Below, one piece after another: positions 22,887 through 42,538 of a stretch of 64,000 nucleotides of DNA; within the stretch, counting starts at the first letter, position 1, and every line of letters starts with the position of its first letter. Source of the DNA: Candidatus Abyssobacteria bacterium SURF_5 (GTDB taxonomy: Bacteria; Abyssobacteria; SURF-5). Both the position numbers and the translations under genes were made by a program. The stretch spans positions 1 through 64,000 of the forward strand of contig QZKU01000114.1 of NCBI GenBank assembly GCA_003598085.1. The letters run 5' to 3'. The notes beneath the pieces are model-generated. The model saw only the letters and a list, made by a program, of their open reading frames with translations. It was not told the DNA's origin and searched no databases.

Positions 22887-22915
22887 GAGAATCCTCCCCG
22901 CCCGTTTTCGGTGCA

Positions 22916-24469
22916 CTAATTCGCTAAAACCGGCATTCCCATCAGCGGCCAGATCAGCCACACGAAAAGCGCCAGCAGCGCCATCAGGAGAATACTTGCG
23001 GGAATGCCCGCCACGAAAAATTCGCCCGAGGTGAACTGTTTGCTTTCATAGGCGATTGCGTTCGGCGCCGCGCCCACCAGCAGCAGGAACGGCATGCCGG
23101 CAGTGGCCAGCGAGGCGAAAAGGATTACCTCGGGAGCTACCCCAAGATAAGGCGCAATCACAAGCGCCACCGGCAGCGAAATCGCGATGGCCGCCACGTT
23201 CATGATGAAATTCGTCATGACCAGCACAAAGAATGCAATCGCAAGGACGAATACAAACGCAGGCGCATGCTGGAACATGACCAGCCATTGTACGGCGATC
23301 CAATTCGCTGCACCGGTTTCCCACAGACAAAAACCAATGCTCATCGCCCCGCCGAATAAGAGGATGATATTCCAGGGTATTTCCTCCAGATCTTTAATGT
23401 TCAGGATGTTGAACACGAAAAACAGGATTGTTGTGATCAGGATGATCGCGCTCTTGTTCAGCGGATCCAGAATCGGGATGAAGGAGCGAAGACTCAGCAC
23501 CGCAATCGCCGAAAAAACAATAATCAAAGTTAGGATTTCAGTGGGGGAAATCGGCCCCAGACGCGCATTCAGCGCCTTCGCCCGCTCGCGCAGGCCCGGG
23601 ATCGTCTTTCTTTCCGGTTTGAAGAAGACCATGAAGAACGCCCATAACAGAAACAGCATCGCCCAACCCAGAGGAAACATGTAGTAGGACAATTCGAAAA
23701 ACGAGATCTCCCTGCCCACCATGTCCTTGAAAAAGCCGATCGCGACCGCCCCGCGAGCGGCCCCAAGCAGCGTTACAATACTGCCGGCGCCCGCCACAAA
23801 TGCCATCCCGATAAAGAGTCCCTTGCCGAAACGGGTAGGTTTGTCTTCATCGTTGTATAGCGTGTAGATCGCCATCAGCAGCGGATAAACAGCGGCCGCC
23901 ACCGCAGTGTGCGCCATGATAAGCGTCAGCGCAGCAGTCATCACAAAGCAGCCAAGATAAATCATGCTGGTCCGCTCGCCGACCAGCGTGAGCATCTTAT
24001 ACGCCATCCTCTTCGTCAGGCCGGTCCTCGAAAAGGCCATGCCGATAATGATCGACCCAAAGATGAACCACACCGACGGGTCCATGAAATCGTTGAAAGC
24101 CGTCTTCGCCGCTCTGATAAGAAACAACGCCTGCACCACGCCAACCATGATGCTGGTTATACCGATCGGGACCACCTCAAAAACCCACCACGTGGCTGTC
24201 AGCAGAAATAAGCCAATCGCTGCTTTTCCCTCTCGACTCAATTCGAAGTGCTTCCCGATCGGGTCAACTGCATCGGGCCAAGGCGGTGAGGCGTAAACCA
24301 GGACAAAAAGGCTTATGCCGCCGACCATGAAAAGAATCCGCTTCCAATCAACGCCGCGGAAGATTCGGCTCAGTTGCGAAGCTTCCCGGATGGCAGTGAC
24401 CTCTCCTCGCCCTATTTCACCGGCTTTTCCCGTCCCCAGGCCGGTCTCTAGACTTCTCTCCTCCGTCAT
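22916..24469 (-). CDS. SLC13/DASS-family sodium:anion symporter (third of the cluster)
   Basis: 517 residues with about 11-12 membrane helices of the divalent anion:sodium symporter fold. After a 40-residue polar N-terminus, helix 1 is near 44-60 and a short loop leads to ATWWVFEVVPIGITSI. The late loop GAAPNAIAYESKQF corresponds to the family signature TPxNAIxY, here with AA in place of T. Family members carry dicarboxylates, citrate or sulfate; the ion here is not readable. AAAGGGAG precedes ATG 24469. It is followed by the porin and preceded by a CBS-pair protein, so entry and regulation are probably encoded together. Confidence 0.9.
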   Translation of the reverse strand: MTEERSLETGLGTGKAGEIGRGEVTAIREASQLSRIFRGVDWKRILFMVGGISLFVLVYASPPWPDAVDPIGKHFELSREGKAAIGLFLLTATWWVFEVVPIGITSIMVGVVQALFLIRAAKTAFNDFMDPSVWFIFGSIIIGMAFSRTGLTKRMAYKMLTLVGERTSMIYLGCFVMTAALTLIMAHTAVAAAVYPLLMAIYTLYNDEDKPTRFGKGLFIGMAFVAGAGSIVTLLGAARGAVAIGFFKDMVGREISFFELSYYMFPLGWAMLFLLWAFFMVFFKPERKTIPGLRERAKALNARLGPISPTEILTLIIVFSAIAVLSLRSFIPILDPLNKSAIILITTILFFVFNILNIKDLEEIPWNIILLFGGAMSIGFCLWETGAANWIAVQWLVMFQHAPAFVFVLAIAFFVLVMTNFIMNVAAIAISLPVALVIAPYLGVAPEVILFASLATAGMPFLLLVGAAPNAIAYESKQFTSGEFFVAGIPASILLMALLALFVWLIWPLMGMPVLAN

Positions 24470-25506: not shown

Positions 25507-25588
25507 ACAATCCTCCCCCTCTCGGGTCATAGGTTGCTCACGTCCAGCTTGATATTTCATCCGCGCCAACACCCGGGGGGTCGGATTC

Positions 25589-26287
25589 TCAGGGGGTAAT
25601 CCGCCCTCTACCGCCTGCCAGCGAGCGAGGGATGAACAGCGCGATAGAGTGTTCAGTATTATGCGCGGGTTTTATCTCAAAACGTCCTCCCAACTCTTTC
25701 ATCAGAATCGAAAGGACCTCTCTTTTTTCATTGATGTCCGCGGCATCGGCAACCGGTGCGCCCGCCACGAAAATCCTGATTTCCGACGCCTCCGGCTTCA
25801 GGCCGATGTTGATTACTGCATTACTGCCCGCCGTCGAGAGCGCAAGCTGAATGCACGTGAAGACCGCCTGCTGCAGTGCGAACGGATCGGTCTCGACAGT
25901 CACCGAATCAGCGGAATCAAATTCCGTTTTGATGCAAATCCCTTTGAGGAAAGCGAATCTTTCAGCTATCGCGGATATCAGGAACAGCAGCTCTCCAAGG
26001 TTCACCTGCTTCACCGGGTCGTCGACGCTGTGCGCGAAGCGGTTCAGGCGCTTAATGATTATTTTCCCCTTGTCAACCTGTTTCGACAGTCTGCTGGAAA
26101 GCCCCTTCAATTTTTCGGAATTCAGCGGGCGCCCCTGTTCACTCGCAGACAGAAGATCGTCGAGCAAACCGGTCAGCTCACCCACGATCGCAACCACATT
26201 GTTGATCTCGTGCGAAAGACTGGCTGTAACGACTCCGAAAAAAGCCAGCTCTTTTTCCCAAAGGATGCGGATTTCCTTTTCCGTCAT
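25589..26287 (-). CDS. degenerate histidine kinase / phosphotransfer-like protein
   Basis: 232 residues, no membrane helix. The dimerisation and phosphoacceptor helix is intact (TASLSHEINNVVAIVGELTG, H26), but the ATP-binding half is eroded: the N-box asparagines are missing (FTCIQLALSTAG), the D-x-G-x-G box is absent and there is no GTGLGL. It therefore should not bind ATP, and may act as a phosphotransfer protein of Spo0B style, or as a scaffold or phosphatase. It is encoded between two single-domain receivers (26301 and 25075), the position expected of a relay intermediate. Confidence 0.75.
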   Translation of the reverse strand: MTEKEIRILWEKELAFFGVVTASLSHEINNVVAIVGELTGLLDDLLSASEQGRPLNSEKLKGLSSRLSKQVDKGKIIIKRLNRFAHSVDDPVKQVNLGELLFLISAIAERFAFLKGICIKTEFDSADSVTVETDPFALQQAVFTCIQLALSTAGSNAVINIGLKPEASEIRIFVAGAPVADAADINEKREVLSILMKELGGRFEIKPAHNTEHSIALFIPRSLAGGRGRITP

Positions 26288-26300
26288 TTCCGGCGGCCCC

Positions 26301-26669: not shown

Positions 26670-26678
26670 CGGTGGCTC

Positions 26679-28445
26679 CTATAGAGGCGGCTTCCTGATC
26701 GGCAGCGCAACGATAAAACTTGTGCCCTGGCCCACCTTGCTCCTCACGCTGATGCCCCCCCCCAGCTTCTCCATGATCCCATACGTAATCGAGAGACCGA
26801 GGCCGGTGCCATAATCCTTTTTCGTCGTGAAAAACGGTTCAAAAATATGGTGAAGATGCTCCTCTGGAATACCGCGCCCGTTGTCCGAAATGGTTATCTC
26901 CACGGTCTCCTGGTCCTGCTCTCTCAGCAAAATATCTATCTGTCCGCCCCCCTCGAGTTCCTCGATCGCATTATTGATGATGTTCAAGAACACCTGCTGC
27001 AATTGGCCGCGATCGCTCTCGATGGATGGCAGCGTGTTGTCGCTCCGGACGCTGACCGCGATGTTGCGGTAGCCCGCCTCCTTCTCCACAAAACCGAGAA
27101 CTTCTTGTATAAGCGCCTCAAGGTCGATCTTCTCGGTCTTCACGTCCATCCGCTTCGCAAAACCGAGCAGGCGATGCGTGATCGTGCTGCAGCGCGTGAC
27201 GGAGGCGAGAATGGAATCCATCAGCTTTTCGAACTTCTCCCTCTGCGGAAATCCGTTCGAAAGCGCAATCAGGTCCTTGGCAAGGCCCGCTTTTTCATTG
27301 ATGATGGCCAAAGGATTATTCACCTCATGCGCCACGCCAGCCGCCAGCCTGCCTATCGACGCCATTTTGTTTGAATATTGGATATGATGAAGCGCCTTCG
27401 CCTGGCGTAAGTCGGCGTCGCGAATGCGCGAGACCAGATATGATGAGGTGCCCATGATCAGGAGAAGAATAATCCCGACACTGATCGCAAGAAACCCGAA
27501 CATGCGCCGCCGCAGCCCGAGCCAGTTCTCCATCAAATCCTCGGGCCCCTTCACGACAACGAAGATGAACGGCGATTGATCTATGTAGGCGTAGCCGAGG
27601 ACGTATGGGTTCCCGCTTCCATCATATTCCTCGACCACTTCAGGCCTGTTGGAGTATGGCGGAACCGGAATCGGGGCGGGGGTGAGCACATTTCCGTGGA
27701 AACGAGAGGCAGTTTGAAAAATCCCTTTATCGTTGATAATGAACGCGTCGCTCGCCGGCCTCAGACCCAGCGAGTAAATCTGGTGATTGAACACCTTCGT
27801 GTCGATGGTCGCCCGCAGCACGTAGAAATCGCCGTTCTGTCTCTCGTGTTTCACGGCCACCACAAAATGAGGAAATTTGCGGTACCCCATAAAGACATCG
27901 CTCACGTAGGCGCCCCGCAGCTTGACCTCGTTGAACCAATCCTGTTCCTGATAATTCATCCCCTGAAGCTCGTATGGTCCGACGTAGGTCCGCTGCTTGC
28001 CCGTCGAGTCGATCAGCCCGACATCCACAAAGCCGCCGAAAGTATTCTTCATGTTCCGCAGGATTCGAGCAAGGATTTCCTGATCTGCGAGTTCATCAAA
28101 TGATTTATCCTCGATGATATAAGCCAGAGCGGAACGCCGCTCCTCCAGGAAGAATTCCATCGAGTGCTTCATCGTTGACGTGAGGCGGAGAATGGGGTAC
28201 ATCATCTCCTGGCGAAACGCTTCGCGATATTGGTAATAATCGTAGATCGTGATGATAATGAGAGGAGTGACTGAGACGCCGGCCGTGATCAGAACGGTGA
28301 AACGCCACAGGCGCGCATAACGGGAGGAGCGCTTTTCGCCGTTTTCCCTTTCCCACCAGCCGCCGGGTATGACTCTTCGCACAAACGATTTCAATCTGTC
28401 CCGGATAGCAAGCCGGTCCGCGTCTTTTCTGCTAATCGTTTCCAA
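26679..28445 (-). CDS. dCache sensor histidine kinase (third copy)
   Basis: 588 residues. Helix 1 at about 48-68 and helix 2 at about 312-334 enclose an extracytoplasmic dCache-like domain with GFVDVGLIDSTGKQRTYVGP, WFNEVKLRGAYVSDVFMGYR and PHFVVAVK. The kinase core has AAGVAHEVNNPLAI, N-box NNAIEEL, DNGRGIP and GTGLGLSITYG. The start is TTG 28445 (AAGGTGG nine bases upstream), overlapping the preceding gene by 14 bases. Paralogues are at 34739 and 39063; the sensor domains share the pattern YVGPY/YAGPY plus SDVF or SDIY. Likely partners are the receivers at 26301 and 28432. Confidence 0.92.
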   Translation of the reverse strand: METISRKDADRLAIRDRLKSFVRRVIPGGWWERENGEKRSSRYARLWRFTVLITAGVSVTPLIIITIYDYYQYREAFRQEMMYPILRLTSTMKHSMEFFLEERRSALAYIIEDKSFDELADQEILARILRNMKNTFGGFVDVGLIDSTGKQRTYVGPYELQGMNYQEQDWFNEVKLRGAYVSDVFMGYRKFPHFVVAVKHERQNGDFYVLRATIDTKVFNHQIYSLGLRPASDAFIINDKGIFQTASRFHGNVLTPAPIPVPPYSNRPEVVEEYDGSGNPYVLGYAYIDQSPFIFVVVKGPEDLMENWLGLRRRMFGFLAISVGIILLLIMGTSSYLVSRIRDADLRQAKALHHIQYSNKMASIGRLAAGVAHEVNNPLAIINEKAGLAKDLIALSNGFPQREKFEKLMDSILASVTRCSTITHRLLGFAKRMDVKTEKIDLEALIQEVLGFVEKEAGYRNIAVSVRSDNTLPSIESDRGQLQQVFLNIINNAIEELEGGGQIDILLREQDQETVEITISDNGRGIPEEHLHHIFEPFFTTKKDYGTGLGLSITYGIMEKLGGGISVRSKVGQGTSFIVALPIRKPPL

Positions 28446-29664
28446 GCTTCTTAGCCACCTTTTCTTTTCTTATCTTTTCATAGGCAGCTTTTACCGTCTG
28501 TGCGAGTTTTTCAATTTCCACGGGCTTCTCTAAATAGGCGAATGCCCCGAGTTCGCGAGTCAGAATCGCGTCTTTTTCGGTTCCATGACCGGTGAGAATG
28601 ATCACCTCGACATTCGGATGCTCCTTCTTGACGCGCCGCAACACATCCACTCCATCAATTCCGGGCATGCGCAGGTCGAGAATCATAACTTCGGGCTCTT
28701 CTTCATTCAAATAGGAGAGGGCTTCCTCGCCGTTATATACGACCGCAGTCGAAAGGTCCCGCATCTGGAGACGCTCCGAGAGGGTTTGCACGAATTCCCG
28801 CTCGTCGTCCACCAACAGCACCTTTGACGGAAGCTCGAATTCGACCGCAGGATAAATTGCCGGGCGCTTGTACTTCGGGCCGACTCGCACTTCGATATTC
28901 CTTACCCCCGGTATCCCGCCTGCTATTTCCCGCAGCTCATTCTTCAGGCTCTCGAGCCTCACGGTGTACTTATTGATGAGGATAGTAACGTTTCCGCTGT
29001 CGGAAACAACATCGACATCGTGTCCCCGTTCCACGAGCGCAACATTCACCCGGCTTGCAAAAGCGAAATCGTTCATCATCTTCAATGAACTCGCCGTCGT
29101 TCGGACCGCATCCGAGCGGGCATTGGTGCAGATCAGTTCGGCCGTCTCACCCGGCGAAGTCGTTTGCATCGGAATCTTTATGTCATAAAGGCTCTTGTCC
29201 CACGGGCCGAGATCAAACAAGTGCTGCGTCCACTTCTTTCGCTCTTCGTCATCCTTCTGAATCCTTTTCAGCGCGTCCCTTTTGCCGATTCCCGCCTCCT
29301 CCATCGCGAGCGGAATCCGGTAGTCGCGATTGGCGACCAGGCACACCTTCAAGACGTGGCTGATCGTCCTTGGCAGAAGATGCCCGGCAAAGCCGTGATA
29401 AACGACGTTGTCACTCTGAACCAGGTGCGCAATCGCGGCTTTGATATAGGCAATATGCCGCTCCTTCTCGTGGACAAACTTTTCCAACAGCGAGGTCGAA
29501 CCGTGAAGAGTCCGGTGAAGTTTCTCCTCGGGAACGCCAAACTCCTTTGCCGCCCAGCTCAGCACCTGTCCATTGATGCAGGAATACCCGAGCTTGGCGG
29601 CAACCGTTCCGGCGACCTCATCTCCTCTGCAAAATGAAGCGCTGAAAATCGTTACAACAGGCAT
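28432..29664 (-). CDS. cytidylate-kinase-like / BON-like / receiver fusion
   Basis: Residues 1-185 match the cytidylate-kinase-like P-loop family (PVVTIFSASFCRGDEVAGTV, VVYHGFAGHLL, KRIQKDDEERKKW), though the Walker A glycines are not classical. Residues about 198-265 look like a BON domain (VTILINKYTVRLESLKNE, GVRNIEV). Residues 280-400 are a receiver with D330 (MILDLRMPGIDG), LTGHGTE and EKPVEI. No DNA-binding domain. GGGAGG precedes ATG 29664. Immediately upstream of and overlapping the third dCache kinase, its probable phosphodonor. The kinase-like domain could bind or transfer a nucleotide under receiver control; this is inference. Confidence 0.88.
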   Translation of the reverse strand: MPVVTIFSASFCRGDEVAGTVAAKLGYSCINGQVLSWAAKEFGVPEEKLHRTLHGSTSLLEKFVHEKERHIAYIKAAIAHLVQSDNVVYHGFAGHLLPRTISHVLKVCLVANRDYRIPLAMEEAGIGKRDALKRIQKDDEERKKWTQHLFDLGPWDKSLYDIKIPMQTTSPGETAELICTNARSDAVRTTASSLKMMNDFAFASRVNVALVERGHDVDVVSDSGNVTILINKYTVRLESLKNELREIAGGIPGVRNIEVRVGPKYKRPAIYPAVEFELPSKVLLVDDEREFVQTLSERLQMRDLSTAVVYNGEEALSYLNEEEPEVMILDLRMPGIDGVDVLRRVKKEHPNVEVIILTGHGTEKDAILTRELGAFAYLEKPVEIEKLAQTVKAAYEKIRKEKVAKKLGND

Positions 29665-29745
29665 AATCCTCCCTCACTGAATCCAAATGCTCGGTGCCAA
29701 CTGCTGGTCAAATGAAACGGGTCACATGGTATATTAGGGTGTATT

Positions 29746-30753
29746 CTATCTTACGTGAGTTGTCTTCATTGTGTCAAACAGGGACGGACAAACCCCTTCG
29801 AGCCCCGCCTTCGGCGTCGCCTGCGGTTCCATCTGATGGTCCTTGATTATCTTGGCCATCTCGAGAAACAAATCTTTTTCCCTGAGGACTCCCACGGGAA
29901 CATTCTGGTCGACCACCAGCAGGTTGGTCACTTTGAGTGAGAGAATTTTCTCCGTGGCTTCCATCAATTCCGCATTCTCATCAATAGTGGTCGGCTTGGG
30001 GGGAAGAAGTCCTCTCACGGTTCTGGAAGCGTTCTCACGCACCATCGTGGCAAAACCGCCCACATAGCTTGAGGCCTCCAGGTATATCGAATGGGAACTG
30101 AGAGAATCCTTTTCCATCAGTCCCGCGCACGGCTCCTGGAGGGCTCGTAAAAGATCGGAAAAGCTGATGACGCCGATGACCCGCTCTTCTTCATCGGTTA
30201 CGAGAATCGGACGGTGGAGCGAATCATGCGGCTTGCCTTCACGAAACGGTTCGTCAAAAAATTGGAGCACGACATCAACCGCCTCCGCCACTGATTGATC
30301 GGCACGGACTCTGCTCATCAACGCGAAAAACGGCACCATGATATCCCGGGCGCGGCGACTGTATTCGGGAACTCCCTTTTTCTTTGCAAACGCTTCCTCA
30401 ATCCGCTCGGCCAGAAAATCGATGCTGCACGGCTTCGTGAGAAATGCAAATACGCCCCGGCGCCGGTCGGCAAGCGCGGAACCGAGCGATCCGTAGCCGG
30501 TAAGCATGATCACCTCGAGATTCGGCTTGAGTTTCTTTAGTTCCCGCAGTGTCTGATGCCCGTCCATCGAGGGCATCTTGATGTCCAGGATTACCACGTC
30601 CACTTCGCTTTTCTTCAGTTCTTCGATCGCCTCGATTCCGCTGGCGGCCGCCTTGACGGCAAAGCCGCGCTTCTTCAGCGTGGCTGCGGTCGTGACTCGG
30701 AACCGATCTTCATCATCGACAATCAATACCTGGATGCCTTTCTCCTCTTCCAT
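29746..30753 (-). CDS. response regulator with receiver plus CBS pair
   Basis: 335 residues. Receiver at 6-125 with D57 (VILDIKMPSMDG), LTGYGS and TKPCSI; then a CBS pair from ARDIMVPFFALM through GVISFSDLLRAL to VGVLREKDLFLEM. The switch region of the receiver departs from its paralogues. ATG 30753 has AAGGAG seven bases upstream. It is the last of three tandem related genes (32284 to 29746). No DNA-binding output: the CBS pair is the likely effector, binding adenine nucleotide or an adjacent symporter. Confidence 0.9.
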   Translation of the reverse strand: MEEEKGIQVLIVDDEDRFRVTTAATLKKRGFAVKAAASGIEAIEELKKSEVDVVILDIKMPSMDGHQTLRELKKLKPNLEVIMLTGYGSLGSALADRRRGVFAFLTKPCSIDFLAERIEEAFAKKKGVPEYSRRARDIMVPFFALMSRVRADQSVAEAVDVVLQFFDEPFREGKPHDSLHRPILVTDEEERVIGVISFSDLLRALQEPCAGLMEKDSLSSHSIYLEASSYVGGFATMVRENASRTVRGLLPPKPTTIDENAELMEATEKILSLKVTNLLVVDQNVPVGVLREKDLFLEMAKIIKDHQMEPQATPKAGLEGVCPSLFDTMKTTHVR

Positions 30754-30840
30754 CCCGGCGCTCCTTTCTCGCATGCGGGTTCCCGATCTCGCCGGGCTGC
30801 CCGAAAACGCTGCAAGTGACTTTCTCCTTTTGCCGGCCCT

Positions 30841-31345: not shown

Positions 31346-32284
31346 TTACCGCGGAGGTCTCGTTCCCCGGATGATGTTCGCTATCTCGAAAATCAAATCC
31401 TGCTCGCGGATTACGCCGATTGGCCTGCCCTGCTCCGTCACCAGCAAGCGCCGTACTTTCAAGGCAAGAATTTTACTGGCCGCGGCCATCAAATTATCGT
31501 CTCCTTCGATCGTCGGAGGAGCTTCAGACATCAGGTCCCGCACCTTCTTCTTGGCCAGGTCCCGCGCCATAACCGTGAAAATCCCCGAATAATTGGGAGC
31601 TTCGAGGAATTGGCTGACGGTATCGGCCATCATCGGGCGCTGATTCTTCGCCATCCTCATGTACTCCGGCTGGAGCCCCTCGAGGATATCGGTGAAGCTG
31701 AGCACCCCGATAACACGGTCGCGATCATCCAAAATCAGCGTCGAACGATGAACCGACTCATGAATGGTGGCCGTGCTGATTGCCGCCTGGAATGAGCGCA
31801 GAATGATCTCGATCGCTTCTCCAACGGTGCAATCCTCATGTACGGTGCTGAATGAGGACAACGGAACCATGACATCCTTCACCCGCGCCTCTTCCTTGAC
31901 TACCCCTCTCTCTTTGGCGTACGCGCTGCGAATCTTGCGGGAGAGCAGGTCGATGTCGCATGGCTTCCCCAGGTAATCGAACACTCCTTCCCTCAGGCCC
32001 GTAAACGCGGACTCGGGCGTCCCGTGCCCGGTCAGCATGATGACCTCGAGATCAGGCTTGATCCTCTTTATCTCCCGAAGCGCTTCGTGGCCGTCCATGC
32101 CCGGCATCTTGATGTCGAGCACGACCACGTGGTATTGGTTCTTCTTTATCTCCTCGATCGCTTCGATCCCGCTCCCTACGGCGGTTACCGAGAACCCGCG
32201 CTTGCGCAGAATTGTCGCGGTGTTCGCCCGAAATCGTTCCTCGTCGTCTACGATCAGTACGTGAATGGTTTCGATGCCTAACAT
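31346..32284 (-). CDS. response regulator with receiver plus CBS pair
   Basis: 312 residues: receiver with D57 (VVLDIKMPGMDG), LTGHGTPESAF and GKPCDIDLL, then the CBS pair from VKDVMVPLSSFS, through VIGVLSFTDILEGL, to PIGVIREQDLIFEIANI. GAGGGG lies just before ATG 32284. It begins 13 bp after the second symporter gene, so it is probably co-translated in equal amount and is the best candidate regulator of that carrier. Same architecture as 29746. Confidence 0.92.
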   Translation of the reverse strand: MLGIETIHVLIVDDEERFRANTATILRKRGFSVTAVGSGIEAIEEIKKNQYHVVVLDIKMPGMDGHEALREIKRIKPDLEVIMLTGHGTPESAFTGLREGVFDYLGKPCDIDLLSRKIRSAYAKERGVVKEEARVKDVMVPLSSFSTVHEDCTVGEAIEIILRSFQAAISTATIHESVHRSTLILDDRDRVIGVLSFTDILEGLQPEYMRMAKNQRPMMADTVSQFLEAPNYSGIFTVMARDLAKKKVRDLMSEAPPTIEGDDNLMAAASKILALKVRRLLVTEQGRPIGVIREQDLIFEIANIIRGTRPPR

Positions 32285-32297
32285 GTCATTCCCCTCT

Positions 32298-34253
32298 TCA
32301 AATTCCCGGCAAGCCGCCGAACCCTCGGATCATCCAGTAAAAGGAAACCATAAGCAGCAACACGACATTTGCGACCACCCACAGGATAACCCCTACACGC
32401 AAGTAATCCTTCGGCTCGAGATACCCGCTCGCATACACGATGGCGTTGGGCGGGGTTCCAATGATCAAACAATAGGCGAAGCTGGAGGCGCAGGCCGTGA
32501 CCATCGCCATGAACGGCAATACGAAAGTGCCCGGATGCACGATGCCCGCCATGTTCAGTGTAATCGGACCAACGGCGGCCGCGGCCGGCCCGTCCGCCAT
32601 GATCTGCGTCATTCCGCCGGTCAGAATGCCGGCCAGAGCGATGAGCGGGAGACCCGACGACATGCCCAATTGGGCAAGCCCCTCAACGGCGGAACGCGCC
32701 AGATAAAACGCCGCCCCAGCCTCATCCAGCACTTTCCCGAATATTATAGCCCCTGCATAGAGCCATACGACACCCCAGTCCACTTTCTCCTGATAATCGC
32801 GCCAGTTGACCACTCCGGCCAGAATATACGCTATCCCGCCCGCTATCGCAACTACGCCGATTCCCAGGCGGACCGGATAAATGCCTAATTGATAAAACTC
32901 TTTTTCGGTAAACCACAGCCACACCATTACGGCAAAGATGATCAGTGTTACGATCTGCTGCCGATTCCATTTTCCCATCCGGCTGATATCTTGCTGCAAA
33001 TACGTCATGGCGCCCGACAGGTCGCTCGTCTTCGGTTTGAAGCGCCACCGGATGACCAGCCACGTCAGCGGCATCATGACGACCACAAACGGCATCGCAT
33101 ACGTCACCCACGTGAAGTAGCCGATGTCCAGCCCGAACATATCGTTCAAGTACGTCATCATGATCACGTTTCTGGCGCCGCCGCTCGGGGCACCGAAGCC
33201 GCCGATGTTGCAGGCCATCGCCACCGTGATCATCAGCATCTTCGCCAGCTCCATATCCGGCGGGTGACCCTCCTTCTGGCTCCCCCTGAACAGGATAATC
33301 GCAATCGGCAGGAAAATCGCCGCCAGCGCGTGGTCGGATATGAAAGACGATGCGGGCGCTATCACCGCAATGAGAACAAACGTTATCGCCGCCACGCTTG
33401 GTTTCGCCAGCTTGTTGAAGAGCGCCAGACAGATGCGCCGGTCAACGCCCGTTTTCACGAAAGCGGCGGAAAACATGAGGCTCCCCAGAATGAACCAGAC
33501 CGCGTCGCTCCAGTAGAGCGATGCAACGTCCTCCCGCGAGACCACTCCGGTGAAGGTAAATGCTATTCCGATGAAGAAAGCCACCGCCGGCAACGGGATA
33601 CATGCGGTGACGAAGCATCCGACGGTGAATACCATCACCCCGAGCGCTACCTTCAGCTTCCAGATTCCTTTGTCGGCCACCTTCTTCTGCGCAGGAGTGA
33701 GATCGTCATAATTCAATCCGTCGGTTCGCAGAGACGCAGCCGATACCATGACAGCGGCATAAGCGTCGTCTGACAAGGCTTCCACAAACGCCTTCGCTCT
33801 CGCCAGGTTCTGTTTGTCCACAGGAATCCCGTAGCTCCTGCACCACTTCTCGTCTCGCTTCAGAAATCCGGAGCGCTTCATCGCGGCATTGCGGATCGAT
33901 TGCTCCTGGATTCTTGCGGTAAGCAGTTGCCACTGCTCAAGGTCGGCCCCCGATTTGTTGAAATGCTGGAGAGCAAGATGCTCGATCACCATGCTCGAGC
34001 CCAGGCTGTATTCGGTCCCTACGTCGATCATCCCTTTGGTCGGAGGCATATAGATGATGCCAAACAACAGCGCCAGCGGAATGATAAATATCTTCCAGTC
34101 AATATATTTGTCGTAGCCTGTCGCTTTCTTTCTTTCCGCCGGGCGTGCTTCCCTTTCAATGGCCATCCGTTTCCGTCGCGCTGACGACCAGGGAAAACTG
34201 GCCAGCACGTTCGCAAGCAGGCCGCTTCTCATATCATTATTGCCACCAGTCAT
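32298..34253 (-). CDS. SLC13/DASS-family symporter with large loop after helix 1 (second of the cluster)
   Basis: 651 residues, longer than the usual 450-550. A basic cytoplasmic N-terminus of 50 residues is followed by helix 1 (about 53-70), then about 130 polar, largely helical residues (72-200) before helix 2; if helix 1 spans the membrane this insert is outside. The symporter core follows, with DAVWFILGSLMFSAAF, the hairpin region FISDHALAAIFLP, and the signature SFAYCLIIGTPPNAIVYASG. Substrate class: sulfate or di/tricarboxylates. AGGAG precedes ATG 34253. It lies between a receiver gene (34290) and a REC-CBS gene (32284). Confidence 0.92.
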   Translation of the reverse strand: MTGGNNDMRSGLLANVLASFPWSSARRKRMAIEREARPAERKKATGYDKYIDWKIFIIPLALLFGIIYMPPTKGMIDVGTEYSLGSSMVIEHLALQHFNKSGADLEQWQLLTARIQEQSIRNAAMKRSGFLKRDEKWCRSYGIPVDKQNLARAKAFVEALSDDAYAAVMVSAASLRTDGLNYDDLTPAQKKVADKGIWKLKVALGVMVFTVGCFVTACIPLPAVAFFIGIAFTFTGVVSREDVASLYWSDAVWFILGSLMFSAAFVKTGVDRRICLALFNKLAKPSVAAITFVLIAVIAPASSFISDHALAAIFLPIAIILFRGSQKEGHPPDMELAKMLMITVAMACNIGGFGAPSGGARNVIMMTYLNDMFGLDIGYFTWVTYAMPFVVVMMPLTWLVIRWRFKPKTSDLSGAMTYLQQDISRMGKWNRQQIVTLIIFAVMVWLWFTEKEFYQLGIYPVRLGIGVVAIAGGIAYILAGVVNWRDYQEKVDWGVVWLYAGAIIFGKVLDEAGAAFYLARSAVEGLAQLGMSSGLPLIALAGILTGGMTQIMADGPAAAAVGPITLNMAGIVHPGTFVLPFMAMVTACASSFAYCLIIGTPPNAIVYASGYLEPKDYLRVGVILWVVANVVLLLMVSFYWMIRGFGGLPGI

Positions 34254-34289: not shown

Positions 34290-34742
34290 TTATTCTTCTT
34301 CCTTGTCAAAAACGGCCATGGGATGGCGGATGATGTTTTCAACTTTGCTCTTCCGCGCTTTCTCCTCTTTTGCCACTTTCCGCTCATACGCGTCCCTTAC
34401 CTTGTCGAGAATGTCGGGGATCGTGGACGGTTTCATCAGATAGTCGAAGGCCCCCAGTTTCAGTCCCTCCACAGCCGACTCGACCGAGGCATGACCGGTC
34501 AGCAGAATGACCTCAATGTCGGGGTGGTTCTGCTTGATCTTTCGAAGCACTTCGACTCCATTGATTCCCGGCATCTTCAGATCGAGCAGTACAACGTCAA
34601 TGCGCCGCTCCTTCAGAATCCTGATGGCGTCAAACCCGTTGGTGCACACGAATGTGCTAACACCGCGTTTTTCCATCAGCCTCTTCGCTGTCGAAAGGAA
34701 CTGCTCCTCATCGTCCACCAGTAACAAATTTATCGAGTTCAT
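34290..34742 (-). CDS. single-domain response regulator
   Basis: 150 residues: receiver with D54 (VLLDLKMPGINGVEVL), LTGHASVESA and MKPSTI, then a basic helical tail (RDAYERKVAKEEKARKSK). GGAGGG precedes ATG, which overlaps the second dCache kinase by four bases; the kinase is surely its phosphodonor. The second symporter follows 36 bp later. Closest in sequence to 36484 of the cluster. Confidence 0.93.
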   Translation of the reverse strand: MNSINLLLVDDEEQFLSTAKRLMEKRGVSTFVCTNGFDAIRILKERRIDVVLLDLKMPGINGVEVLRKIKQNHPDIEVILLTGHASVESAVEGLKLGAFDYLMKPSTIPDILDKVRDAYERKVAKEEKARKSKVENIIRHPMAVFDKEEE

Positions 34743-36487
34743 TTTGGTATCCCTCCTTGCTCATGAGCGTTTAACCAGCTCCTGGTCTTCCCCCCCGGCG
34801 ACCCCGAGATCGGGAGGCGGACCGTAAAGGTCGAGCCAACGTTCACTTCACTGCTCACCGAAATGTCTCCTCCAAGGCGTTCGATTATGCCGTAGCACGT
34901 GCTGAGCCCCAGTCCGGTGCCTTGCCCGACCGGCTTTGTCGTGAAGAACGGCAGAAATATCTTTTCAATGTGCTCAGGCAAGATTCCGCACCCGTTGTCT
35001 TGCACCGAGATGATCACGTCTTCTCCTTCCTGCGCGGCAGTCAGGCGGATCTCGCCGCTGTCCGCCATTTTGCTTACCGCATACATCGCATTATTGATAA
35101 GATTCAGAAACACCTGCTGGAGTTGGCCCGGGTCGCTTTTGATGGGAGGCAGATCGCTCTGCACCTCTTGCAAAATGTTCACATTCTCCACGTGCGCCCT
35201 GCGCTCGACCAATGCAATGACCTCCGGCAGCAACGTCTTAATGTCCACTGCCTGAATATTTGTTTGGGATTCCCGCGCAAACTTCAGGAGCCCCTGTGTG
35301 ATCCTTCCGCATCGGTCAATCTGCGCACCCATCTGGTCTATCGAATTGCGCAGCATCCGAAAGTTTTCCGCCTGATCGGGTCCGTTCGCTTCGATATCCG
35401 CCAAAATGTCCTTCATCAGCATCTCTTCGGATTTCATCACCTGGAGCGGATTGTTTATTTCATGGGCGACTCCCGCGCTCATTTCGCCAACCTCGGCCAG
35501 CTTGCCCGCCATGATGAGCTGGCTTCCCATCCGCTTCTTTTCCATGTCCGCCATGGTCAACTGCTGAGAAACGCCGGTTGCGAGAAAAAACCCCATCGTC
35601 ACGACGGCGACCCCGCCGGCAAGAATGATCCCAACAGCTATGAGAACGGCTCGCAACAGCGGCGCATAAGCATCGCCGATCTCCTGGCGCACCACGAGCA
35701 GCCACCCGGTCGGCTCCAGCCTGCTGACGGCATACAGGTGGCGCGCGCCCGCGCGGTCATCAGCGGCAAACGAAGTGGTTTGCTTCTGGTTGACCTGATA
35801 AGCGATATAATCAGGATCGTCCTCCATCAGGTTCCCGCCCGATCGGCGCCTGGTCTGAAATATACCATTCCGATTGACCAGATACGCCTCGCCGGTCTTG
35901 CCAATCCGGACGTTCTCAACCAGATCGTTGAAGAAGAATGTGTCGATTGTCGCCCGGATATACCAGGGGCGCTCACCCTCGAACCTCCGGACCGCGATGA
36001 CGAAATGAGGGATATTGCGATAGCCGAGAAACACGTCCGAGATAAATATCTCTTCGTTCTGGACCCGCTTAAACCACTCGGCCTGAGCGTAATTCTTCCC
36101 CTCCAGATCATACGGGCCGACGTAGGCGACATGATTCCCCTCCGCGTCGAAGACGCCCAAATCCAGGAAGCCGCGCGACAGGTTCTGCAGACGCTCGAAT
36201 TCCGCCTTGATGTTGCCGTTTCCGCTGAGCTCCGAAAGACTACTCGAGGCAGCAACGTACCTCAGGTCCGCCGAGCGCTCGAGCAGAAACTGTTCGACCA
36301 GGTTTCGTTGACCTTCGGCCAGATACGCCAGCCTGGCACTCACCTGACCGCTCAGATTGGTCGCGAAATAGTAGATGAGCGTTCCAAAAACCAGCATGAC
36401 CGCCACGAATGGAACCAGCAGCACCCGCAGCAGGATCATCCGCCTGGTATTCTCGAAATTGACCGTTTTTTCGATAATGGAGTTCAT
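34739..36487 (-). CDS. dCache sensor histidine kinase (second copy)
   Basis: 582 residues. Helix 1 at about 17-39 (MILLRVLLVPFVAVMLVFGT) and helix 2 near 283-305 flank a dCache-like sensor with FLDLGVFDAEGNHVAYVGPY, WFKRVQNEEIFISDVFLGYR and PHFVIAVR. Kinase core: SAGVAHEINNPLQVM, N-box NNAMYAV, DNGCGI and GTGLGLSTCYGI. ATG overlaps the upstream receiver stop by ATGA and its stop overlaps the next receiver start, so three signalling genes are translationally chained. Confidence 0.93.
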   Translation of the reverse strand: MNSIIEKTVNFENTRRMILLRVLLVPFVAVMLVFGTLIYYFATNLSGQVSARLAYLAEGQRNLVEQFLLERSADLRYVAASSSLSELSGNGNIKAEFERLQNLSRGFLDLGVFDAEGNHVAYVGPYDLEGKNYAQAEWFKRVQNEEIFISDVFLGYRNIPHFVIAVRRFEGERPWYIRATIDTFFFNDLVENVRIGKTGEAYLVNRNGIFQTRRRSGGNLMEDDPDYIAYQVNQKQTTSFAADDRAGARHLYAVSRLEPTGWLLVVRQEIGDAYAPLLRAVLIAVGIILAGGVAVVTMGFFLATGVSQQLTMADMEKKRMGSQLIMAGKLAEVGEMSAGVAHEINNPLQVMKSEEMLMKDILADIEANGPDQAENFRMLRNSIDQMGAQIDRCGRITQGLLKFARESQTNIQAVDIKTLLPEVIALVERRAHVENVNILQEVQSDLPPIKSDPGQLQQVFLNLINNAMYAVSKMADSGEIRLTAAQEGEDVIISVQDNGCGILPEHIEKIFLPFFTTKPVGQGTGLGLSTCYGIIERLGGDISVSSEVNVGSTFTVRLPISGSPGGKTRSWLNAHEQGGIPK

Positions 36488-36975
36488 TTTCCCTCTTGGT
36501 CCAACTGCTTGATGCGCCGCAGGATGGCCAGCGGAGAACTCGAGTCGGCCATGTCGAGAATCGCATCCATCCGCTCTTCTTTGATCTTATTTTTGTTCAT
36601 GACGCGACGCTTATAGGCATCGGTCAACACGGATAGGAGTCGCTCGAGTTCGCACGGTTTCTGGAGGTAAAAATAGGCCCCTTTCTTCGTGCATTCAACC
36701 GCCGATTCGGTCGAGCCGTGACCGGTGAGGATGATAACCTCCATCCACTTATGTTCCTTCTTCAGCGCCTCGAGCGTCTGTTCCCCGTCCATTCCGGGCA
36801 TCTTCAAATCGACCAGCGCCACATCGATCGGGTGCTTCCTGGCCGCCTCAAGCGCCTTTTCCCCCCGGTTGACAGTGATGACGTTGAAATCCCTCACTTC
36901 GAGTCTCTTCTTGGTCGATTCAAGAAAGCGCTCTTCATCGTCGACGATCAAGAGGTTGATTTTGTCGTTTTGCAT
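36484..36975 (-). CDS. single-domain response regulator
   Basis: 163 residues: receiver with D56 (ALVDLKMPGMDGEQTL), LTGHGSTESAVE and QKPCELERL, followed by a 40-residue charged helical tail ending in RRIKQLDQEGK. ATG 36975 is chosen since GGAGG lies six bases upstream; the frame has one earlier ATG. It is 18 bp after the REC-symporter fusion and overlaps the second dCache kinase, so it links the first and second kinase-transporter modules. Confidence 0.92.
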   Translation of the reverse strand: MQNDKINLLIVDDEERFLESTKKRLEVRDFNVITVNRGEKALEAARKHPIDVALVDLKMPGMDGEQTLEALKKEHKWMEVIILTGHGSTESAVECTKKGAYFYLQKPCELERLLSVLTDAYKRRVMNKNKIKEERMDAILDMADSSSPLAILRRIKQLDQEGK

Positions 36976-36993
36976 TTTTTCCTCCATGCCCCG

Positions 36994-39060
36994 TTAGAAG
37001 CCCATCCAGCGCCAGTAGCCGAAGAAGGTCCATCCCCACAGCACGATGAAAGACAGGAGCAGAACGACCGACCCGTGAATCAGAAAGTCCTGCGTGGTCA
37101 CCAACTGCTCGCCCGTCTCCGGATCCTTTGCCATGCTGTACGCGATTGCATTGTTCGGCGTCCCAATGATGAGCATGAACGCGAAAGAAGAAGCGAAAGC
37201 CGTCGCCAACCCGACCATGATCGGGGAAGTGCCGGAGAGCGTCGCCATGGGAACCGTGATCGGCCCGATCGCCGCCACCGTCGCTCCGTCGCTCATGAAA
37301 TTCGTGATCACGCCTGAAAAGATGCTTGTGGCCACGCACAGGCCGATACCGCTCGTCATCACTTCGGGAAGCGCTCCGATAAATGCATCGGCCATCCACA
37401 GGGCAGCGCCCGTATATGCCAGTCCCGCTCCCATTGCGCTCGCGCTGGCATACAGAGCAACAACGTCCCAGTGAATCTGGTTGATGTCCCTCCACCGCAA
37501 AATCCCGAGCACATTCAATAGCACAATACACAGCAGTACAGGACCGCCCATTCCATACTTGCTGGAAACCGTCGACCACAGGATGATTAACAGGACCAGA
37601 ACCGCCGCCGTCCTGTACTCGTTTTTCGTCATTTTCCCTATCTTCTCGGATTCCTTGCGGACCTCGGCGGCCACATTCAGATTCTTCACTTTGATCTTCT
37701 TCCGGAACAGAAGGAAGAAGTACATGCTGATCACCAGCGCCATCACGGGAACCGTCGGCAGCCCATATTTCACCCATTGTGCGAATGGGAGCGTGATCCC
37801 GTAATCCGACAGGATGCCAAGCATCACCGCGTTACGCCCGCCGGCGGCAGGAGAGCCGGGCCCCCCCACATTGGCGACAAAGGTCAACATCAGGATCATC
37901 ATCACCGCCAGATTGCGATCCTTGTTGATGCCTGCGGCCCGTACCGCGCCGCCGTACACCAGGATGAAGATCGGTGCGATGAAAGCAACCAATGCGTGCT
38001 CCGAGAGGAACGCTGCCGATACCGCCAGCAGCGGCGCGAAGATAAGCGCCAGCTTTGCCAGTGAGGAGCTGGTCCCCAGCAATAACAGCCCGATTCTTCG
38101 GTCGAGTCCCGTTTTCGCAATCGCGGCGGACACGGCAAGGACTCCGAAGATGAATATGACCGAATCTTTTGCATAGGCCGCGGCAACCCGATCCGGCGGC
38201 AAAACTCCGAAGAAGTACATCAGCATTCCCACAAGAAGTGCGGTCACCCCGACCGGCATCGCGCCGGTCGCCCAGAAAAGCGCCGCGACCACCAGCGTCC
38301 CGATCATCACGCGCGCCCGAAAAGCCGCCTGCTTCGGGCTTAACCCGACCTTCACGTTCTTTCCATCTTCACGGGTGACCGTGTGCGTGTAACCGGCTTT
38401 CTCGCTGTAGTAATCCGTGATCGTCTGGCCGGCTTTCATCTTCCTGTATTCGGAGTAGCCCATGATCGACTGGGGCTGATTTTCAAGTTTCTCCGTGCTC
38501 AGGAGAGTCAGAAGCTTTTGTGGAGCCGGGGTCGCTATGATCGCCAGGAACAGCAACAGCCCCAGGATGATGTACATCGGCCGCGCATTATGTGCTCCAA
38601 TCAGCCAGCGCCTCAGGCTGCCCCGCTTGATGTGCGGAATTTCGTGCCGCGCCATCGCGTACACCCGCTCTTTCCGGGCCGCCTCGATCACCTCGACCAG
38701 ATCATTGAGCACGCACGGCTTCTGCATGTAATGAAACACGTCATATTTGCCGGTAAGACGCGCCGATTCAGTGCTGCCAAATCCAGTCAGCATGATCACC
38801 TGCACCTCGGGCCTGATTTTCTTGATCTCCTTCAGGGTCTGGATGCCGTCCATCTTCGGCATTTTCTGGTCGAGGATGACCACCTCCGGGTTTTTGTGGC
38901 GGACTATCTTGATAGCGTCCTCGCCATTGTCGACATCCCAGACCTTGTATTCGCGGACCTCAAGCTGCTTTTTCATTGCGACACGGAATTTTTCCTCGTC
39001 ATCAACGAGTAACACCCGTGCCACGCCGTCGGTGACGGCAGACGTTGCTTGTGTGGCCAT
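36994..39060 (-). CDS. receiver domain fused to an SLC13/DASS symporter (first of the cluster)
   Basis: 688 residues. Residues 14-130 are a full receiver: acidic pair D20/D21, phosphoacceptor D64 (VVILDQKMPKMDG), T92 (MLTGFGS) and K114 (QKP). A basic linker of 30 residues leads to helix 1 (about 161-178), a polar insert of about 65 residues, then the symporter core: DSVIFIFGVLAVSAAI, SEHALVAFIAP, FMSDGATVAAIGPITVP and the signature IIGTPNNAIAYS. ATG 39060 has GGAGGAG seven bases before it; the longer frame to 39108 lies inside the kinase gene. The receiver is cytoplasmic and covalently attached, so phosphorylation by the kinase encoded 2 bp upstream could gate transport directly. Confidence 0.95.
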   Translation of the reverse strand: MATQATSAVTDGVARVLLVDDEEKFRVAMKKQLEVREYKVWDVDNGEDAIKIVRHKNPEVVILDQKMPKMDGIQTLKEIKKIRPEVQVIMLTGFGSTESARLTGKYDVFHYMQKPCVLNDLVEVIEAARKERVYAMARHEIPHIKRGSLRRWLIGAHNARPMYIILGLLLFLAIIATPAPQKLLTLLSTEKLENQPQSIMGYSEYRKMKAGQTITDYYSEKAGYTHTVTREDGKNVKVGLSPKQAAFRARVMIGTLVVAALFWATGAMPVGVTALLVGMLMYFFGVLPPDRVAAAYAKDSVIFIFGVLAVSAAIAKTGLDRRIGLLLLGTSSSLAKLALIFAPLLAVSAAFLSEHALVAFIAPIFILVYGGAVRAAGINKDRNLAVMMILMLTFVANVGGPGSPAAGGRNAVMLGILSDYGITLPFAQWVKYGLPTVPVMALVISMYFFLLFRKKIKVKNLNVAAEVRKESEKIGKMTKNEYRTAAVLVLLIILWSTVSSKYGMGGPVLLCIVLLNVLGILRWRDINQIHWDVVALYASASAMGAGLAYTGAALWMADAFIGALPEVMTSGIGLCVATSIFSGVITNFMSDGATVAAIGPITVPMATLSGTSPIMVGLATAFASSFAFMLIIGTPNNAIAYSMAKDPETGEQLVTTQDFLIHGSVVLLLSFIVLWGWTFFGYWRWMGF

Positions 39061-39062
39061 AA

Positions 39063-40805
39063 TTAACTCTCCTCCGCTGAGTTCAATGGGAGCACAACAG
39101 TGAAACAACTTCCGGCGCCCGGCATGCTCTGAACTTCAATCTGTCCCCCCATCGCCTGCACTATGCTCAAACTGATGCTCAAGCCAAGCCCGGTCCCCTT
39201 TCCGACCTCTTTCGTCGTGTAGAAGGGATTGAATATCCTGGACATCTGATCCGAGGTCATTCCCTTGCCCGTGTCGGTAATGCTTATTCGTACATCGTTT
39301 TCATTGAGGCGGGTCGCCAGCGTGATAGTGCCTGAATTCACGATCGCATCGCCCGCATTATTGATGATGTTGAGGAACACCTGGCGCATCTGATCCGGGT
39401 CGACCTTCAGCTTCGGCAACAAAGGATCAAAGTCTCGCACCACCTGAATATCGGACACCGATAATTCGCGCTCCTTCAATCCGCAAATCACTTCCTCAAG
39501 CAGTCGGTTTATATCCGTCGGCGCCAGGCGCGGCTCGCTTTTTCTCACGAAATTGAGCAATTTCTGAGTGATATCGCGCGCGCGAAACACAGCTTCGTCA
39601 ATATAGTCAAGTTCCTGCCTGATCTTCTCCGGCGTACACTCCAGACCGAACTGGGGATCGAGCAGGTCCCGGATCACCCCGCATTCCGAGGAGATGATGG
39701 CGAGTGGATTATTGATTTCATGCGCGACGCCGCCGGCAAGCTCCCCGACAGCCACCAGTTTGGCCGCATGGAAAAGCTGTGATTTCAGTTCCTTGCGGGA
39801 TTCGTCAGTTGCCTGCGCCCGGCGCAGCAGCCTGTTTGTAGCCGCCCACGTGATCGTCGCCAGCACGACCACAAAGAGGCCGGTGACCGCGATCATGATC
39901 CGGCGAACGCGATACATATCGGCGTAAGCCACTTTGAGCGGCTGACGGACAACTAACACCCAGGGCGCCTCCTTCAACCAGGAATAGGCGAATAGCTGCG
40001 GGTCGCCGTTCGAAGCAACTTCGTTCGCGCCCGAACCGCTGCCTTTCGGCGGCATGTACGGGCTGATTCCAAGCAGGCCGCCCTCGCCTGGATCGACCAC
40101 CTGGTACTTCCCTTCCCGATTAATGAGAGCCGAATTCGCCACTTTCCCCTGACCAATCGTCCGTATGAAGCGGTAAAACTTGTCGGGGTCCAGGGTCGCC
40201 CGAACCACGTAAGCACGGCCTTCCACCATCTGTTTTACCGCAATCGTAAAGTGAGGCTTCTGGCGGAATCCAAGATAAATGTCGCTGATGTAGTAGTTCT
40301 GATTCTGACTCATCAGTGTCTGATACCATGCTTCCTTGCTGTAGTCTTTCCCCCGCAGATACGAGTAAGGTCCGGCATAGCCGATCTGCGTCCCCCTTTC
40401 ATTGAGGAAACCGACATCCACAAATGCATCGCTCATTTCAAGAAGCTGCTGCAACGCCTTGCCCATGTCTTCCTGGGCGGGAGGAAAATCCAGGTAGCTG
40501 CCATGAAAGAGATTGAATATATTGACCACCCGCTCCTGCAGGAAGAGGTCGATCGTGTTGCGCTGGGTTTCGGCCAATGTTGTCAGATGCAGCTTCCCGC
40601 TTTCCTTCAGCGTCACATTGAACTGAAAATGGAAGTAAAGAGAAAGAATTGCGAGGGGCGTCAGGAACGCGATCAGCAAGCCCACGGACAATCGGTGGCG
40701 CAGTCGGCGGTAGTATTCCCGCATTCCGACCCGGGGAAGCGGCGGGATCGTCCTGGGAGATCTGGGCCTCTCCGTTGGCTCCATGGTCTCGGCGCTCTTA
40801 TGCAT
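39063..40805 (-). CDS. dCache sensor histidine kinase (first copy)
   Basis: About 580 residues. Sensor between helix 1 (SVGLLIAFLTPLAILSLYF) and a second helix (IMIAVTGLFVVVLATITWAA), with AFVDVGFLNERGTQIGYAGP, YYISDIYLGFRQKPHFTIAVK. Kinase core: AGGVAHEINNPLAII, NIINNAGDAI, DTGKGM and GTGLGLSISLSI. The frame runs to ATG 40922, but the inferred sigma-54 start at about 40929 leaves that ATG almost no leader; ATG 40805 has GAGGAG five bases upstream and ATG 40883 has AGGAA, so 40805 is preferred. It ends 2 bp before the REC-symporter fusion, its probable target. Confidence 0.9.
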   Translation of the reverse strand: MHKSAETMEPTERPRSPRTIPPLPRVGMREYYRRLRHRLSVGLLIAFLTPLAILSLYFHFQFNVTLKESGKLHLTTLAETQRNTIDLFLQERVVNIFNLFHGSYLDFPPAQEDMGKALQQLLEMSDAFVDVGFLNERGTQIGYAGPYSYLRGKDYSKEAWYQTLMSQNQNYYISDIYLGFRQKPHFTIAVKQMVEGRAYVVRATLDPDKFYRFIRTIGQGKVANSALINREGKYQVVDPGEGGLLGISPYMPPKGSGSGANEVASNGDPQLFAYSWLKEAPWVLVVRQPLKVAYADMYRVRRIMIAVTGLFVVVLATITWAATNRLLRRAQATDESRKELKSQLFHAAKLVAVGELAGGVAHEINNPLAIISSECGVIRDLLDPQFGLECTPEKIRQELDYIDEAVFRARDITQKLLNFVRKSEPRLAPTDINRLLEEVICGLKERELSVSDIQVVRDFDPLLPKLKVDPDQMRQVFLNIINNAGDAIVNSGTITLATRLNENDVRISITDTGKGMTSDQMSRIFNPFYTTKEVGKGTGLGLSISLSIVQAMGGQIEVQSMPGAGSCFTVVLPLNSAEES

Positions 40806-40939
40806 TTCGCTCCTCGAGCCCGGCCACAGAGGTGGCATCTGCGGTTTGTACTTAACCGCCCCTTCCTCTTTTCGCCGGGTCATTGGTTTCCTGCTGTATG
40901 GATAGGCGGGAACCTGCTCCATACTTTCAGTTACCTATC

Positions 40940-41107: not shown

Positions 41108-42538
41108 TTATTCCTGAGGCTGTTCGGAGGACTCAGTCAAGTTGCACTTTTCCATCTTGGCGTGGAGGGTGGGTCGCGAGATGCCCAGAAGCTTGGCGGC
41201 TTTCGTCCGGTTCCCATGCGTCAGATTCAGCGCCTCCGTTATCAGGAGTTCGGTGAAATGATCTATGAGAGACGAGAAAAGATTATTCCGTCCTCCGGCC
41301 ATTATGCTGCCGCGCACCCATTGGCGGATGCTCTCTTCTATATTCCTGTTGGCGACAACGTCCTTAGCCGCATCATTATGGACCGCCTGTGAGATATCCT
41401 CCGGCCGGATCGGATAGCCGCGACTGAAAATCAGCGCCTTCTGGAGCGTGTTTGCCAGCTCACGCACATTGCCGTGCCACGGATGATTTTCCACCATCGA
41501 CAACGCTTCATTTGTGATGCCGGGACTCTCCATCCCCATTTCCGTTGCGAAACGGGTCAGGAAATAATGGCAAAGCAGCCGAGTGTCGCCCTTGCGGCTC
41601 CGAAGCGGGGGAATCTCAATCGTGACCACCTTCAAGCGATAGTACAAATCCTCGCGGAATCGGCCTTCTGAAAGGGCGGCCTCAAGATTGCGGTTGGTCG
41701 CCGCCAAGATACGCACGTCCACCGGGATCGGCTCCCGACCGCCCAACCGCTCGATATTCTTCTCCTGAAGCAAGCGCAGGATTTTCGCCTGAATGCTCAG
41801 GGGCATATCCCCGATCTCATCGAGAAAGATCGTCCCCCCGTTTGCCTGCTCGATCTTCCCGATCCGCCGGGCTACGGCGCCGGTGAACGTCCCCTTCTCA
41901 TACCCGAATAACTCGCTCTCGAGCAATGTCTCCGGTATCGCGACGCAATTGATTACCGTGAACGGCTTGTCGGCGCGCAGGCTGTGCTGATACAATGCCC
42001 GCGCAACCAGTTCCTTGCCCGTTCCGGATTCCCCGCGAATCAGGACGGTCGCATCGGTCGGGGCAACCCGCCCTATGGCCTTGTAGATTTCCTGCATCGC
42101 GGGAGATCGCCCGATTATGGCTTCAGGCGCCGCCGTATCCGGGACCGAATCCATTTCAACGCGCGAGCGCATGAACCTGCCCGCCTCAATCGCCTGCTCG
42201 ATGAGACTGAGGATATCGGGAATGTCGAACGGCTTGAGGACGTAATCGAAGGCGCCCAACTTGGTCGCCTCAATCGCCGTGTCGGTCGTGCCGAAAGCTG
42301 TCATGATAATAACCGGGAGCTTGGAGTCGATCTTGCGGATCGCCTGGAAAGCTTCCATTCCGCTCATGCCGGGCAGGCGCACGTCCATGATGAGCAGGTC
42401 GGGAACGAACTGCTTGAGCGCCTCGATACCTTCTTCTCCGGAGGATGCCGTTCTGACCAAATAGCCTTCTTCCTGCAACAGCTTGTCAAAACTCTGCCGC
42501 AGTTGCACATCGTCTTCAACAATCAGAATCGAACTCAT
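41108..42538 (-). CDS. NtrC-family sigma-54-dependent response regulator
   Basis: 476 residues: receiver with D52 (LLIMDVRLPGMSG), AAA+ domain with Walker A GESGTGKE, sigma-54 contact loop KGTFTGAV, Walker B GGTIFLDEIGDM and arginine fingers, and a Fis-type helix-turn-helix at the C-terminus (GNRTKAAKLLGISRPTLHAK). The loop has GTFTGA in place of the common GAFTGA. It overlaps the kinase gene upstream by ATGA and ends 18 bp before the proposed activator site. It is the only DNA-binding two-component regulator in the window, so it probably drives the sigma-54 promoters at 40940 and 21277. Confidence 0.96.
   Translation of the reverse strand: MSSILIVEDDVQLRQSFDKLLQEEGYLVRTASSGEEGIEALKQFVPDLLIMDVRLPGMSGMEAFQAIRKIDSKLPVIIMTAFGTTDTAIEATKLGAFDYVLKPFDIPDILSLIEQAIEAGRFMRSRVEMDSVPDTAAPEAIIGRSPAMQEIYKAIGRVAPTDATVLIRGESGTGKELVARALYQHSLRADKPFTVINCVAIPETLLESELFGYEKGTFTGAVARRIGKIEQANGGTIFLDEIGDMPLSIQAKILRLLQEKNIERLGGREPIPVDVRILAATNRNLEAALSEGRFREDLYYRLKVVTIEIPPLRSRKGDTRLLCHYFLTRFATEMGMESPGITNEALSMVENHPWHGNVRELANTLQKALIFSRGYPIRPEDISQAVHNDAAKDVVANRNIEESIRQWVRGSIMAGGRNNLFSSLIDHFTELLITEALNLTHGNRTKAAKLLGISRPTLHAKMEKCNLTESSEQPQE

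Follow-up and report, generated by a model that had tools for sequence, protein, structure and literature searches.

Here, we describe a protein encoded by Candidatus Abyssobacteria bacterium SURF_5 in which a complete two-component receiver domain (REC) is covalently joined to a membrane domain of the DASS fold. The protein is probably a response regulator with a secondary transporter as its output, under direct control by phosphorylation. Its gene lies in a window of 64,000 nucleotides (positions 1 to 64,000 of contig QZKU01000114.1), the whole stretch of DNA that was analysed (Table 1). A scan of our genome collection together with two genome searches yielded 35 distinct fusions, 34 of them complete and one (L074) shortened in the DASS part, so that the combination of Response_reg and Na_sulph_symp in one protein, which the initial annotation had proposed to look for across genomes, is indeed recurrent. 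The unit is usually a compact four-gene cassette and not a single protein. Both this cassette and the occurrence of the fusion beyond its source genome had been missed by the initial annotation.

Table 1. Features of the REC-DASS locus and of the surrounding two-component cluster in the window.
Feature	Coordinates	Strand	Basis or remark
REC-DASS fusion gene	36994..39060	-	688 aa, single open frame without stop
Receiver (REC) domain	38686..39015	-	residues 16-125, Pfam Response_reg E 5.6e-25
Linker, end of helix alpha5 and basic segment	38578..38685	-	residues 126-161
First transmembrane helix (TM1) of DASS part	38521..38577	-	residues 162-180, hydropathy peak
Hydrophilic segment between TM1 and TM2	38323..38520	-	residues 181-246, predicted periplasmic
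DASS-fold membrane domain	36997..38322	-	residues 247-688, Pfam PF00939
First motif S353-E354-H355 replacing Ser-Asn-Thr	37996..38004	-	aligned to VcINDY SNT motif
Second motif S590-D591-G592 replacing Ser-Asn-Thr	37285..37293	-	aligned to VcINDY SNT motif
Sensor histidine kinase, dCache, presumed phosphodonor	39063..40922	-	Pfam HisKA, HATPase_c
Lone receiver, 167 aa, directly downstream of fusion	36484..36987	-	Pfam Response_reg
Sigma-54 (NtrC-type) response regulator, upstream	41108..42538	-	Pfam Sigma54_activat, Response_reg, HTH_8
Second dCache histidine kinase, paralogous module	34739..36487	-	Pfam
Separate receiver, paralogous module	34290..34742	-	Pfam
Unfused DASS transporter, 651 aa, paralogous module	32298..34253	-	Pfam and TIGR00785
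REC-CBS protein, paralogous module	31346..32284	-	Pfam Response_reg and CBS
Second REC-CBS protein	29746..30774	-	within cluster 21471-31260
Cytidylate kinase-like domain (PF13189) and C-terminal receiver, one protein	28432..29664	-	Pfam
dCache-type kinase	26679..28445	-	within cluster 21471-31260
Kinase-like ORF	25589..26287	-	within cluster 21471-31260
Third DASS gene	22916..24469	-	within cluster 21471-31260
Porin_O_P-family porin	21471..22961	-	within cluster 21471-31260

The receiver of the fusion scores 88 bits against the PF00072 cut-off of 30, is modelled with a pLDDT of mostly 80-93, and is matched by Foldseek to the solved receivers 3crn and 3kcn (TMt 0.81-0.92). The complete set of phosphorylation residues listed in the initial annotation is present and invariant in 35/35 fusions, namely the acidic pair D20/D21, the phospho-accepting D64 (codon 38869-38871), the switch residue T92 and the lysine K114. 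E22, M67, P68, Y111 and P115 are equally invariant, and K51, R83, Q87, G104 (alpha4) and R129 (alpha5) are specific to the fused receivers and absent from the lone ones. The linker, counted as residues 126-162, is 37 residues long with zero indels in every fusion, and A128, E140, G155, N158, R160 and P161 never vary. It is basic, with a mean net charge of +3.5 over residues 129-161 across the fusions and +7 in the window protein. Since this basic segment precedes TM1, the positive-inside rule would place the receiver on the cytoplasmic side.

The membrane domain is recognized by Na_sulph_symp (PF00939; DASS/SLC13 family, TC 2.A.47) at residues 248-686 (E 3.8e-39, 135 bits against a cut-off of 27), a match that spans model positions 29-469 of 472. 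A profile of the fused DASS domains recognizes VcINDY (E 2e-25) as well as members of the human SLC13 family, and in Foldseek the structural model pairs with NaS1, NaCT and VcINDY at E about 1e-15 and a TMt of 0.7-0.8. The whole-chain AlphaFold model has a pLDDT of 79 and a pTM of 0.69, and was built from 28 sequences that include the window's own receivers and DASS paralogues, with the unfused DASS rows misaligned at the N-terminus; an input of seven sequences gave a pLDDT of only 38. TM1 is modelled as helix 161-176. Between TM1 and TM2 lie 63 to 72 residues that form the least conserved part of the fusions (median pairwise identity 44%); within them, a motif MGY.(D/E)YRKM was shared by the eight fusions that were aligned first. 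The structure prediction of receiver against symporter suggested by the initial annotation thus delivered both folds, but, as the linker falls below a pLDDT of 50 at residues 139-147 and 155-158, no contact between receiver and transporter is predicted with confidence.

The two Ser-Asn-Thr (SNT) motifs, which in VcINDY hold substrate and Na+ (PMC7553777), are replaced in the fusions by SEH at the first site, invariant in 35/35, and by SDG at the second, without exception among the 34 fusions whose sequence extends over it. Unfused relatives carry SDH/ADG, SEH/SN and SAH/SDA types at these positions, and a GGRN loop with its arginine is common to the fusions and most unfused relatives. The fusion also scores below the curated cut-off of TIGR00785 (179.7 against 198.6 bits). 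LaINDY, an exchanger, has basic side chains where Na+ would otherwise sit (PMC7553777), and the Drosophila INDY is H+-coupled (PMC11782487). Because of the replaced motifs we file the protein as DASS-fold and do not treat Na+-coupled anion symport as established, and transport by the DASS part is putative. The protein could equally well be an exchanger, an H+-coupled carrier or a Na+ symporter, and it may also have lost transport. Of the initial description of a receiver joined through a basic linker to an SLC13/DASS symporter, the fusion, the linker and the fold therefore stand, while the label "anion symporter" is too strong. The genes around the fusion vary from genome to genome and do not point to one substrate.

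The kinase reading frame ends at 39063 and the ATG of the fusion starts at 39060, which confirms the two-base spacing noted earlier for the window. In 34/35 loci the fusion has a histidine kinase upstream, in equally many it is followed within about 70 nt by a lone receiver, and a CBS-domain or REC-CBS protein adjoins it in about 28. The usual gene order in Zixibacteria is dCache kinase, CBS protein, REC-DASS and lone receiver. In the L022 cassette Pfam confirms every part, with dCache at E 2.3e-09 yet under its cut-off, and in the window kinase dCache_1 likewise reaches 44.5 bits, just below the cut-off of 45. No DNA-binding response regulator occurs in the four Zixibacteria cassettes that were read together with wide flanks, and the genes outside them vary between genomes. 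The NtrC-type regulator upstream in the window is possibly a transcriptional arm of the Abyssubacteria lineage, and a receiver-led, regulator-like ORF of 457 aa lies near the fusion in G189. Their proximity suggests that in these two cases the kinase may also serve a transcriptional arm. In the genome G001, the neighbourhood of the fusion (L015 1571-9292) holds two TauE/SafE transporters, a PPDK_N and PEP-utilizers protein and a lone receiver.

Direct phospho-control is the best reading of three observations, namely a linker that is constant in length and conserved in sequence, a phospho-site that never varies, and kinase cassettes that lack a DNA-binding regulator. It is weakened by the replaced SNT motifs, by the low-confidence linker in the model and by the possible transcriptional arms in Abyssubacteria and G189. 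According to this reading, the adjacent membrane sensor kinase would sense an extracellular ligand through its periplasmic dCache domain and phosphorylate D64 of the cytoplasmic receiver. The receiver would be joined by an extended alpha5 helix and the constant-length linker to the first scaffold helix of the DASS domain, and phosphorylation could alter its packing on the transporter dimer, or its pairing across it, so as to open or block the elevator movement. One may speculate further that the downstream lone receiver drains or buffers phosphate and that the CBS protein adds a second, cytosolic (nucleotide) control. We consider it slightly on the likely side that the fusions constitute a new class of response regulators with a secondary transporter as output, encoded in a portable four-gene cassette that is conserved in several uncultured phyla; its dCache kinase would act directly on a DASS-fold anion carrier, both phosphorylating and gating it, and the CBS protein and the lone receiver would serve as further controls.

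Signalling could also run in the opposite direction. The transporter would then be a co-sensor, its receiver docking the kinase and sinking phosphate, and transport flux would tune signalling to the lone receiver and, in the window, also toward the NtrC-type regulator. Transporters are established as co-sensors of kinases in DctA and DcuB with DcuS, kinases with transporter inputs such as CbrA, CrbS and RpuS are known, and in CbrA and CrbS the transport domain is fused to the kinase. The near-constant presence of a lone receiver would supply the other output that this reading needs, but in the Zixibacteria cassettes that receiver is itself without visible output, and a rigid linker of constant length running into a scaffold helix is not something that the reading itself predicts. 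We regard this arrangement as unlikely, yet as the one that has to be taken most seriously beside direct phospho-control.

The replaced motifs are open to a different interpretation, in which the DASS part is a transceptor that binds its anion and no longer transports, making the protein a membrane-anchored, ligand-gated receiver. Substrate and Na+ motifs are both swapped invariantly, and the missed NCBIfam cut-off points the same way. Related variants nevertheless occur in unfused relatives (SDH/ADG, SEH/SN), where they may mark another coupling ion, and DASS exchangers with basic residues at the Na+ sites retain transport (PMC7553777). Moreover, the DASS part is the sole visible output of the protein, and a pure transceptor is in our judgement quite improbable.

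It has also to be asked whether the fusion is a mere tether, ensuring 1:1 production or membrane localisation of the receiver without allostery, as the paralogous module at the same locus manages with receiver and DASS transporter as separate proteins. Neither a passive tether nor a decayed receiver is expected to keep invariant phospho-residues and an indel-free linker in 35 fusions. The invariant linker length, the conserved linker residues and the fusion-specific receiver residues instead point to specific contacts, which leaves the tether very improbable. That the fusion is an assembly or annotation artefact is next to inconceivable, for although all named records with it are metagenome assemblies and a few copies are broken (e.g. 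by the scaffold gaps of CP070742 or the frameshift of L097), the 35 distinct and independent copies across different assemblies and phyla rule this out.

An internal start that would yield the transporter as a separate protein, named in the initial annotation as a finding that would speak against a fusion, was considered and rejected, as it is not conserved among the 35 fusions. Met136 in the linker is missing in 7/35, its Shine-Dalgarno complementarity is moderate only, and L067 has a linker without any start codon. No start codon that lies inside the linker and comes with a ribosome-binding site is conserved across the 35 fusions, and in most of them the N-terminal start has the better signal. 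In the window gene the values are -6.1 kcal/mol at ATG136 and -9.5 at the N-terminal ATG, and occasional initiation at ATG136 may take place within this gene itself.

The fusion is present in all three genomes of Candidatus Abyssubacteria in the collection, among them Candidatus Abyssobacteria SURF_17; these represent three genera of one family and carry it at full length with 68-69% identity. In Zixibacteria it occurs in about 30 of 133 genomes, some of which have two copies, and two more small phyla contribute one genome each, G208 (57% identity) and G189 (56%). Independent genomes thus hold the same full-length fusion at 56-69% identity along the whole length, which together with the uniform 37-residue linker contradicts a frameshift or assembly join at the junction, a concern raised at the outset. 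At E<=1e-90 no fusion was detected in the phyla of G046 (82 genomes), G231 (8) and G059 (1), and the absence from these three further phyla makes the distribution patchy and narrow. Viral contigs gave no match when scanned for the fusion or DASS, and a scan of them for receivers returned eight REC loci, all unrelated. Two damaged copies should be mentioned separately. The Zixibacteria "chromosome" CP070742 contains 100-N scaffold gaps (L026 6425-6524; L075 8025-8124) at which the fusion gene is seemingly split over two distant places, suggestive of mis-scaffolding, and the gene of G465 (L097 418-2453) has an apparent frameshift inside the DASS part, away from the junction.

In a maximum-likelihood tree, which has long branches and is unsure in its deeper joins, all fused DASS domains group together in a single clade (support 97/96), and the sister group consists of unfused DASS proteins. 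Such a clade is consistent with a single fusion event. Two of the sister proteins (L094 and L095) are encoded directly behind a CBS gene without kinase or receiver, and have only about 20 residues ahead of TM1. The simplest history would be that a CBS-DASS pair gained a kinase and a receiver, and that the receiver became fused once.

Two-component systems are best known for controlling transcription, enzymes, second messengers or motors. The fusion shares with classical response regulators the same complete receiver and a presumed cognate dCache kinase next to it, but in place of a DNA-binding, enzymatic or protein-binding output it has a polytopic membrane transporter. Compared with the DASS/SLC13 proteins VcINDY, LaINDY, NaCT and NaS1, which it matches in fold and profile over nearly the whole membrane domain, it differs by the N-terminal receiver, the conserved linker, the TM1-TM2 segment of about 65 residues, the SEH and SDG motifs and the score under the TIGR00785 cut-off. 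In the SLC5/STAC kinases (CbrA, CrbS, RpuS), too, a secondary transporter and a two-component module are covalently linked; there the transporter domain provides the input to a kinase, whereas here a different transporter family sits at the receiver, or output, end, and Pfam finds neither a kinase core nor an SLC5 match in the fusion protein. DctB/DctD and DcuS with DctA/DcuB similarly link a kinase with a dCache or periplasmic ligand domain to a dicarboxylate-type transporter, but their control is transcriptional and the transporter is a non-covalent co-sensor. We could not find a receiver-transporter fusion, or a transporter described as an output class of response regulators, in a library of 5.39 million open-access papers, and such a fusion may be described elsewhere. 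If direct phospho-control holds true, a bacterium could switch uptake within seconds by phosphorylation, without turning genes on. REC-DASS would then be a compact and testable system for phospho-control of an elevator-type transporter, with an elevator fold that is shared with the human SLC13 proteins.

The unfused DASS transporter of the paralogous module is 34% identical to the fused DASS domain. Beyond this module the two-component cluster continues over 21471-31260 (minus strand) and includes further lone receivers, and its PF13189-receiver protein is another unusual receiver fusion. A corresponding unfused module of kinase, REC, DASS and, in some cases, REC-CBS protein in Zixibacteria (L096 177-5722, L076 7308-13582) adjoins NiFe-hydrogenase or heterodisulfide-reductase-like genes, and the L086 fusion cassette adjoins hydrogenase maturation genes (hypD, hypE-like). 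These DASS systems, the unfused module and the L086 cassette alike, may be connected with hydrogen metabolism.
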